Origin: Nitrospira sp.
GTDB taxonomy: Bacteria; Nitrospirota; Nitrospiria; Nitrospirales; Nitrospiraceae
DNA length: 64,000 nucleotides
Assembly (NCBI GenBank): GCA_024998625.1
Contig: JACOEL010000006.1
Coordinates: forward strand, 124,001-188,000
Direction: 5' to 3'
In this document: positions 41,518-44,061 of the stretch, piece by piece
How the letters are laid out: each line of letters starts with the position of its first letter
Position numbering within the stretch: the first letter of the stretch is position 1
Notes under the pieces: generated by a model
What the model was told of the DNA's origin: nothing
What the model saw: only the letters and a program-made list of their open reading frames with translations
Database searches by the model: none
Position numbers and translations under genes: made by a program

Positions 41518-42018
41518 TCAAAACTTACCCGCCTTCAGATTGCGCCGGAGCTCATGGCCTGCTTCGGTGGAACCGACAATCTCGGTTATGACGCCAATAA
41601 CCCGACGCGTGTCGTAGTAGCCGACACGTAAGATGGGCAACCGGAAGCTTTGAATCTGAGGATAGCCCGAGGACTCCAGGTGAGCGGCCGCGGCGTCATA
41701 GTCCGTATCGTCCAGCCAGTACGCCACGTGCTGAACGGCGTCACCGTGTCGATCAAGTGAGTCCTGGTACATGCTGGCCCCCGAGACAGGCTGGATCAGT
41801 TCGATCTGGGTGTCTCCTGCGTAGGCGATGTGAAGGTTGCAAACCCAGTTCCCCGGCTTTCCGAGATAAGTGCCCTCGGTGTCCTTTGCCGCGAGGTTGT
41901 CCATGTGCATGAAGCGGCTGATTCCCATCGTTTCAACGAAGAACTTCTCGGCGGCCGCAAGGTCTCGGACGACCCAGGCAACTTGGCAGAACGCTGGAGC
42001 AATCACTGGCTTTGTCAT
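41518..42018 (-). CDS. VOC (glyoxalase/bleomycin-resistance) family protein
   Basis: A 166-residue VOC-fold protein. First half FCQVAWVVRDLAAAEKFFVE and the His-containing VQHVAYWLDD strand follow the family's paired beta-alpha-beta modules; metal ligands are probably among CQVAWVV, the ELIQP Glu and VQHVAYW. The substrate is unknown. It is monocistronic on the minus strand and flanked by an attC-like site, as expected for a gene cassette. The start at 42018 is natural. Confidence 0.8.
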   Translation of the reverse strand: MTKPVIAPAFCQVAWVVRDLAAAEKFFVETMGISRFMHMDNLAAKDTEGTYLGKPGNWVCNLHIAYAGDTQIELIQPVSGASMYQDSLDRHGDAVQHVAYWLDDTDYDAAAAHLESSGYPQIQSFRLPILRVGYYDTRRVIGVITEIVGSTEAGHELRRNLKAGKF

Positions 42019-42326
42019 GTTTGGACTCCTGTGATTTCTGTGCGTACCGAAGCGGGCTAACTATGTTTAGGCCGATCCGCATAAGCGCCGGATCTGTCAT
42101 CTTCTATCCGTATAACACGCCACTACGGTTCGTGAACAATACGCCATAATCGATGCTTGTTCAACGAGTTACGACTGGGGGTGCTGTCCTAATTGGGACA
42201 CTTCACCACAAGCCATGACAGCTTGCGTGTTGCAATGGACGTAACTCGAATGTCTAATTAAGGACAGTTGGAAAGACGAATGAGGGCACAGGAGTGGGCA
42301 CGAGAAGACAAGAGGGCAGTCGCGTG

Positions 42327-42728
42327 CTAGACGGGGAGAAAGTGGCGAACAAGGACCTGGGAAATGTTCTGAAAATCGCGGTCTGAGGTGAGGATGGGAA
42401 GCCCGTGCTGCATGGCGCTGGCAGCAATCCAGATATCGTTAACGGCAACCGGGGTGCCGGCCTTTTTCAACGCCACGCGAATGGTCGCGTACCGTTCCGA
42501 CGTTTCTTCGTCCACGATCAGCACGCTGACGCGCGAGGATTCCAGAAACATTCGTAACTCACGCTCATTGCTTTCGCGGTTACTCCCCTGGAGAAAGCCC
42601 GCGCGAAGCTCTCCGAGGACAATCGGACTGAGCCATATCTCTTCCGCTTGAGGAAGGATCTCAAGCACCTCGGGGTGTCTTTTCTTGAACGCGATATATG
42701 CGGAGCTATCCAGAAGCAACCGGGTCAT
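42327..42728 (-). CDS. vapC: VapC-type PIN-domain toxin
   Basis: A 133-residue PIN ribonuclease. Acidic residues expected for metal are present: Asp in LLLDSSAYIAF, Glu in LGELRAGF, and Asp in VNDIWIAASAM with the final SDRDF. It starts by a four-base overlap with the antitoxin (stop 42725), the usual coupling in VapBC pairs. Length is typical (about 130). A toxin that cleaves tRNA or rRNA is expected by family. Confidence 0.9.
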   Translation of the reverse strand: MTRLLLDSSAYIAFKKRHPEVLEILPQAEEIWLSPIVLGELRAGFLQGSNRESNERELRMFLESSRVSVLIVDEETSERYATIRVALKKAGTPVAVNDIWIAASAMQHGLPILTSDRDFQNISQVLVRHFLPV

Positions 42729-42985
42729 TTCCAGAGCTCCGGATCAATCGTGCGTTGCTCGGCAATGAGGGCCTCGAAGGCGGCGGCCTCCTCCTTCGTC
42801 CAGGTTCCGGCGAGATGATCCAAATCATGATAGCGGACCGGCGATTTCTTTTTTCCCTTGCCCCCAACCGATTCTTCCAACAACTCGATGACCGCCTTAT
42901 TCACGCTCGTCTTCTTCTGTTTGGCTCGCTGTTGAACCGTACGGGCAACGTCGGGTGGAAGGTTCCGTAACGTAATCGCTTTCAT
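42725..42985 (-). CDS. vapB: VapB/FitA-type ribbon-helix-helix antitoxin
   Basis: An 86-residue antitoxin. The N-terminal ribbon-helix-helix is ITLRNLPPDVARTVQQRA and the helix KTSVNKAVIELLEES; the C-terminal half (DHLAGTWTKEEAAAFEAL) is the toxin-binding tail typical of FitA-like antitoxins. It overlaps the toxin gene and precedes it, giving the normal antitoxin-first order. Both are inside the repeat-bounded element. Confidence 0.9.
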   Translation of the reverse strand: MKAITLRNLPPDVARTVQQRAKQKKTSVNKAVIELLEESVGGKGKKKSPVRYHDLDHLAGTWTKEEAAAFEALIAEQRTIDPELWK

Positions 42986-43305
42986 GGCGTCGTGTCTCCA
43001 TGCATCATAGATGCCTCACAGTGATGCACAGTATACCGCAGTGAACCTGGCTCGTCAAAACACGTGGGGGCCGCGGGTGCTGTTCTCATGAGGACATACA
43101 GGGTTGAGATCAGGACGCGTCATCCCAGATTAGGGCAGATTGCGTGTGACATGGCATTGGACTGATCGATCAACTGAGGACAGTTTAGGCAGATAAATAG
43201 GACACACGTACATCTTGTCCTCATTTAGAGCGGCCGATGAAATGAGGACAGTCTGATTCACGTGAGGACAGCTCAGGGTAAATTAGGACAGCACCCGACT
43301 GGGGG

Positions 43306-44061
43306 ACCATTGATCACGCGTTCTTATGCGGATCGACGTAAGCCCCCTCGCGCAGCCAGCGTGCAAAGGGCACTGCTTCTGCTTCAGTGGCGGGAGAGGG
43401 TTCAGGGGACGCGCAGTGTTTCGCGGTGCCATGAGGCACGGTCGCCGATGCGGCGCATATGAAGTCTCTGCGCGGGACAATCAGCCACTACGGCGACTGA
43501 AGGATTGTCGAACTCCTCCCGGCTGGTCGGCAGCCCCGGTGTTCCACGCAAGGGCGGGCCGTTTTTTTGTCTCACCTGCTGAATACTTCCAGTTTATTGA
43601 TCACCCTCTACCCAGCGTTGTGCAGCCATTTCATGAAGATCCACCATGGATCTCACCAGCGTCACGCCTCATAATTTCTTGACGAAATTGAGAACCTGAG
43701 AAGGGCAAAAAGCAGGGCGGAGGCAGGGTCAGAGAGCTTTTCAGTAACAGTGGAGATCTTGGAGAGGCTTCAGGCTTCCCGCTTGGCACCTGCGGGCCTG
43801 CTCACCACCTCTACGCTCGACCTCGGTTCCCATCTCTGTTCCTCTCACCGAAGCCTCCGCTCACTTCTTGAATAATGCTGTTTTGGACGAGGTCAATGGG
43901 GGCTCGTGCCCCAGTGGCCTGCCGGGCGCCTGTGGCAATTTAGGACAGGGGCGAAGCAGAGATTCAACCATCGCAGTGGTTTGTGCGTGGCATATCCTAT
44001 GCTGCTTCATCACACAGGAGGCGCGCTCTTGCGCCGGCGACCAGGGGGCTGAGGGGTGGCG
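43306..44061. other. Gene-free region between the vapBC element and uspA
   Basis: A 756-base stretch without a gene I can defend. On the minus strand a frame of about 57 codons ends at 43319 (ending FARWLREGAYVDPHKNA) and may be the tail of an older gene, but it has no start or family match. A T-run follows GGGCGGGCC at 43554-43570, a possible terminator without a perfect stem. GGACAGG also occurs at 43945-43951. Confidence 0.45.

Follow-up and report, generated by a model that had tools for sequence, protein, structure and literature searches.

Insertion sequences of the IS1 family have ends of the form GGnnnTG (PMC6807381). Passenger genes that lie between the ends of an insertion sequence with no transposase beside them, and that are expected to move in trans, form so-called mobile insertion cassettes, of which MIC231, of the IS231/IS4 family, is an example (cited in PMC2266710). 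In the Tn3 family, toxin-antitoxin (TA) genes are well documented as passengers (PMC7157771); pairs of the PIN and Gp49/HigB types are among them, and the family includes non-autonomous derivatives, the TIMEs (PMC7157771, PMC4133298). Group IIC-attC introns and IS1111-attC elements are mobile elements that break integron attC sites at a fixed point. The ends of Tn3 elements measure about 38 bp and their target-site duplications (TSDs) 5 bp. For IS1, a limited literature search found no paper describing TA passengers, the association with Tn3 being the only one returned.

The insert described here, 1,116 bp in length, occupies positions 42180-43295 of a 64-kb window (the whole stretch of DNA analysed) from the genome of a Nitrospira that is close to N. 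defluvii. It is most probably a transposase-less derivative, that is, a mobile insertion cassette, of an IS1-superfamily transposon and mobilised in trans. As in MIC231, passenger genes lie between the ends of an insertion sequence and a transposase is lacking, but the ends are of the IS1 type, not that of the IS4 family, and the passenger is a TA operon. The insert resembles Tn3 transposons and TIMEs in carrying a TA pair on a non-autonomous element, yet it contains no resolvase as Tn3 does. Like the attC-associated introns and IS1111 elements it breaks an attC-like site at a fixed point, whereas it is of the DDE type with a TSD, which is another mechanism, and is not confined to attC, as a copy in the related genome G007 demonstrates. 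Its closest IS1 type, which we take to be the long single-ORF type with passenger genes (ISfinder subgroup ISMhu11), has GGnnnTG termini, TSDs of 8-9 bp and room for passengers, and the DDE_Tnp_IS1 domain recurs in the partners of the window element; unlike that type, the window element has no transposase, and the recognised cargo is often toxin-antitoxin or defence-like. Iterated subterminal motifs such as those found here are, to our knowledge, not a familiar feature of IS1 ends. As cargo of a transposase-less IS1-type element, a TA module would have a concrete route between loci and species.

Boundaries, termini and subterminal motifs

The element and its ends consist of the following features.

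42172..42179, no strand: left copy of the 8-bp target-site duplication, CGACTGGG
42180..43295, no strand: non-autonomous IS1-type element, 1,116 bp, with perfect 15-bp terminal inverted repeats, an 8-bp TSD and empty sites
42180..42194, plus strand: left terminal inverted repeat, GGTGCTGTCCTAATT
42256..42269, plus strand: left subterminal iteron, AATTAAGGACAGTT, of a motif class common to L155, L190 and the Fic elements (see below)
43170..43277, plus strand: right subterminal iterons, with GGACA/TGTCC at 43178, 43200, 43216, 43246 and 43266
43281..43295, minus strand: right terminal inverted repeat, GGTGCTGTCCTAATT
43296..43303, no strand: right copy of the 8-bp target-site duplication, CGACTGGG

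The sequence of the element runs from GGTGCTGTCCTAATT on the left to AATTAGGACAGCACC on the right, the perfect 15-bp termini being inverted with respect to each other and flanked on either side by the 8-bp duplication. The original prediction had described 10-bp direct repeats and exact 16-bp inverted repeats that enclose only a VapBC pair and motif-rich non-coding DNA. The direct repeats (CGACTGGGGG, 42172-42181 and 43296-43305) and the inverted repeats (42179-42194 and 43281-43296) are indeed present, and open reading frames and Pfam profiles agree that the interior holds nothing but vapBC and such DNA, with no transposase. The apparent target duplication is real as well, but its length has to be revised from 10 to 8 bp: if symmetric termini (GGTGC...GCACC) are taken, the element is 42180-43295, and of the 10-bp repeat, two bases match the GG at the start of the element by coincidence while the other 8 bp are the duplication. 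A duplication of exactly 8 bp likewise accompanies the independent insertion in G007, which has the same termini. In the 64-kb window this is the sole place at which an exact 8-bp direct repeat adjoins inverted repeats of 10 bp or more, and the mean number of such arrangements in Markov simulations was 0.0 (n=50).

The termini fit the IS1 signature, with GGTGCTG inverted at both ends, and the duplications fall within the 8-9 bp of IS1 (CGACTGGG here; CGGAACCA, with an empty site, in G007). The ends are identical over 15 bp to those of one transposase-encoding IS1 element (L155) and near-identical to those of another (L190); the window element itself encodes no DDE transposase, only vapBC, and for this reason it is filed as a non-autonomous IS1 derivative. 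Clusters of AGGACA motifs lie near both ends: the pattern TDAGGACAGY occurs nine times in the window against 0.41 expected, and six of the nine occurrences are inside the element. The last two right iterons are spaced 20 bp apart, which is also their distance to the terminal repeat, and the right iterons are a putative transposase-binding array. On the left, the terminal repeat together with the next GGGACA forms a palindromic end.

The vapBC operon

42327..42728, minus strand: vapC, PIN-domain toxin, 133 aa (PF01850, E=6e-19; NF047959 below cut-off)
42725..42985, minus strand: vapB, FitA-like ribbon-helix-helix antitoxin, 86 aa (PF22513, E=4e-7)

The arrangement is that of a type II VapBC system, in which the PIN toxin gene lies downstream of the gene of a small DNA-binding antitoxin and overlaps it, here by 4 bp. 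The usual acidic positions of PIN toxins are visible in VapC (LLLDSS, LGELRA, NDIWIA, TSDRDF). Both genes have their full length in each of the six or seven extracted copies, dN/dS across copies is 0.15-0.40 for vapC and 0-0.47 for vapB, and the operon is under purifying selection. VapBC is presumably functional as a toxin-antitoxin pair and gives the element stability.

Evidence of movement

The original prediction called for comparison with strains that lack the insert, and such empty sites were found. In N. defluvii the same locus is empty, the sequence continuing from a glyoxalase gene through GAGTTGCGACGGTGGGACC with no insert. The G007 copy lies in unrelated intergenic DNA, and its empty counterpart is present in G014, where 296 of 296 bases align at 97% identity. 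Comparison of the copy at 42180 with that in G007 thus reveals two unrelated targets with the same termini, each with an 8-bp duplication. The element is not tied to one conserved locus in its relatives: it is found, at about 93-98% identity over the aligned core, at other loci in G028, G005, G025 and G019, in truncated form in G023, and in another context in G114 and G269, two genomes from another genus (g2) of the family. A plasmid search found nothing. The 8-bp duplications, the empty sites and the several genomic locations establish that the element is mobile. The copies in G005 and G025 have suffered right-end deletions. In G114 and G269 (L119 and L120) the right end is kept, and the left side is different and carries an HTH_17 (excisionase-like) gene.

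Autonomous partners

The ends are not unique, as they recur on the copies in relatives, on elements with a Fic gene and on L155. An exact search for the 15-bp end returned 28 stretches of viral contigs; most single-end matches among these are probably due to chance, and matches were kept only if iterons or two ends were present. Within the genus, the search with the 15-bp pattern gave mostly background. The search for an autonomous element with the same ends was answered by L155, on a viral contig: its two 15-bp ends are identical to those of the window element, point outward and are separated by 2.6 kb, its iterons are of the same type, and a perfect 8-bp TSD, TCATTTTG, flanks it. L155 encodes a 317-aa protein that matches DDE_Tnp_IS1 (PF03400, E=1e-7) and NF033558 (E=2e-17), its score of 63.8 bits against the NCBIfam IS1 model being under the cut-off of 100, and it also encodes a HigBA-like pair, consisting of a Gp49/HigB-like protein and an HTH protein. 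The contig of L155, IMGVR_UViG_3300020580_000001, is a putative phage or prophage contig in which the IS1 transposon lies beside a tyrosine integrase gene. L190, a second such element, has an IS1-family DDE transposase, iterons and near-identical ends (GGTGCTGTCCTAA), but no clean TSD.

Elements that combine matching ends with a transposase were found in viral contigs only, to which no host is assigned. No IS1 transposase was found in the genome that carries the window element, and none of the iteron clade among the 29 genomes of the genus; only three of these have an IS1 transposase at all, with ends of the GGTAGTG/GGTACTG type. It is therefore doubtful that the element is active in its present genome, and it may now be immobile. 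The original prediction, that a TA module is mobilised in trans by another element, is borne out as regards mobility and shared ends; the action of an IS1 transposase in trans is what we infer from those ends, a partner transposase not having been found in the genome itself.

The insertion site

41518..42018, minus strand: glyoxalase-like gene (PF13669), integron cassette gene adjoining the attC-like site
42055..43344, minus strand: attC-like integron recombination site split by the element, about 165 bp without the insert

The target, which did not figure in the original prediction, is very probably an integron attC site. It has an R' core GTTAGCC at 42055-42061 (reverse complement) and an opposite arm GGCTTAC at 43338-43344 (reverse complement); once the insert is removed, 42055-43344 has inverted arms, and the last bases of its minus strand, immediately ahead of the glyoxalase gene, are GTTAGCC. 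The same gene is found in G010 and G028, where it directly follows different, short attC sites of the classical form that end in GTTAGAC, and the sequences part exactly at this core. In G010 the glyoxalase cassette has a fragment of IntI about 2 kb away, and the genus does possess IntI genes. In N. defluvii two attC-like sites form direct repeats with a cassette-sized segment in between. It is from these features, a GTTRRRY core at a sharp cassette boundary with inverted arms, the proximity of IntI to the cassette array in relatives and the repeat pair of N. defluvii, that the identity of the site is drawn.

In its own genome (G000), as in G028, G005, G025, G019 and G023, the element occupies an identical position within an attC-like site. 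Among the copies compared, the attC arms are about 77-93% identical, against 86-98% for the non-coding DNA of the element, and this lower conservation of the arms is a hint of separate insertion events in different attC copies, or repeated targeting. The five relatives' copies could also have been spread by cassette recombination rather than by transposition.

Proposed mechanism and alternatives

Under the preferred reading, an autonomous relative would supply an IS1-type DDE transposase, which would recognise the transposase-less element by its GGTGCTGTCC termini and by the AGGACA iterons next to them, and would join the element ends to the target with an 8-bp stagger; here the target would be the arm region of an attC-like site. 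The vapBC operon would ride as a passenger and be kept by selection, plausibly through the killing of cells that lose the element. The IS1-type reading rests on the GGnnnTG termini, the 8-bp TSD and the identical ends on L155 and near-identical ends on L190. Types IS6, IS21, Tn7 and Tn3 were weighed by end sequence and TSD length, and the presence of identical ends around an IS1 transposase decided for IS1. Alternatively, the AGGACA arrays and the palindromic GTGCTGTCC ends may be thought REP-like and moved by a Y1 tyrosine (RAYT) transposase, as the terminal palindrome behind a GGTG tetranucleotide does resemble REPs and the genome has one RAYT gene. Transposition of the RAYT/IS200 type makes no target duplication, but there are two independent insertions with 8-bp duplications, matching ends flank IS1 transposases and no Y1 transposase was found between such ends. 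Y1_Tnp genes occur in 19 of the 29 genomes of the genus, and none of the RAYT loci fetched has AGGACA clusters at its ends. The RAYT of the own genome (L006, G000:C35:19531-19854), its only one, has different ends, GGGGTCAGGTCTTGCAAT, unrelated to those of the element, and a REP origin is extremely improbable.

A further alternative is that IntI moves vapBC from one attC site to another as it does any integron gene cassette. In its favour are the location within an attC-like site, the neighbouring cassette gene, the IntI genes of the genus and the recurrence of the same insertion point in six genomes. The unit, however, is placed inside an attC-like site and not between two of them; it is bounded by termini and a TSD of its own, the G007 copy lies outside attC, and the copies of genus g2 are found in a different context. 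The G007-type insertion with its TSD disfavours IntI as the sole mechanism, and a simple cassette is very unlikely, secondary spread by cassette recombination being possible. A better case can be made for a fossil, left when an autonomous IS1 element with vapBC once lost its transposase and then inherited or spread by other means: no partner transposase was found in the genus, and the copies include right-end deletions in G005 and G025 and a truncation in G023. Such a relic is nonetheless unlikely: the TSDs are intact at two unrelated targets, both of which are known in empty form. This implies that in at least one lineage the movement of transposase-less copies came later than the loss, the alternative being that the transposase of the parent disappeared twice in an identical manner.

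Siblings and the wider IS1 group

The end family has several transposase-less members with different cargo, as the Fic elements and a miniature attest. In G005 a 2.1-kb element with the same ends (L042 2033-4108, G005:C29) has a Fic/DUF4172 gene instead of vapBC, and G007 has left-end and right-end fragments of Fic-type elements; L113 is also a left-end fragment of this type. The miniature, in G140 (L163/L121, G140:C19, at about 170 kb), has GGTGCTGTCC ends, no gene and a length of about 90 bp. The loci L043, L114 and L115 yielded nothing of use. G007 also has an MNT/HepT toxin-antitoxin-like pair (L041 265-1154, G007:C13), about 3 kb away from the end of a Fic-type element.

Relatives of the L155 transposase, taken from viral contigs and Nitrospirota genomes and delimited by script, gave 30 related IS1 elements with exact duplications, of which 16 are distinct viral-contig elements, two are further Nitrospira elements (L164, L166) and 12 come from Nitrospirota. 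Inverted termini are mostly GGTAGTG, duplications are 8 or 9 bp and lengths 1.8-4.2 kb, with other genes aboard; in the Nitrospirota set, GGTAGTG termini and an exact TSD of 8 or 9 bp are present in every one of the 12 elements examined. Several of the 30 carry toxin-antitoxin or restriction genes. Most of the 88 cargo ORFs have no Pfam match, and those that do include HigB and HicA toxins, Gp49, the SocA/Panacea antitoxin, a GmrSD restriction endonuclease, YdaS, five M78 peptidases (HTH-linked where examined) and six P63C proteins, with one weak PIN match below cut-off. The transposases of elements with iteron-type ends (L155, L169, L190, L252) form one clade with those of L168 and L188 (support 0.999), and the window element has the iteron end type of this L155 clade.

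The finding is thereby tied to a broad set of IS1-superfamily transposons with TA, HTH-M78, SocA/Panacea and GmrSD cargo. Tentatively, there may be a distinct IS1-superfamily clade with iterated subterminal binding sites behind GGT[AG]CTGKCC termini, in which TA or defence-like cargo is common and transposase-less satellites (vapBC, Fic) use the machinery of the clade to spread and insert preferentially into integron attC sites, transposon, TA module and integron then being one nested dispersal system. The finding also makes it testable whether TA genes are of use to the transposon or just travel along, and whether attC sites are favoured as insertion targets. A small protein with the motif GGxxRAxxLSxxxRxxIAxxAAxxRW is encoded in many GGTAGTG-type IS1 elements, mostly about 200-250 bp inside one end; by a strict pattern it is present in 16 of 32 elements, 0 of them in the iteron clade, and its loci are L164, L170, L175, L177, L179, L229, L232, L234 and L236-L239.
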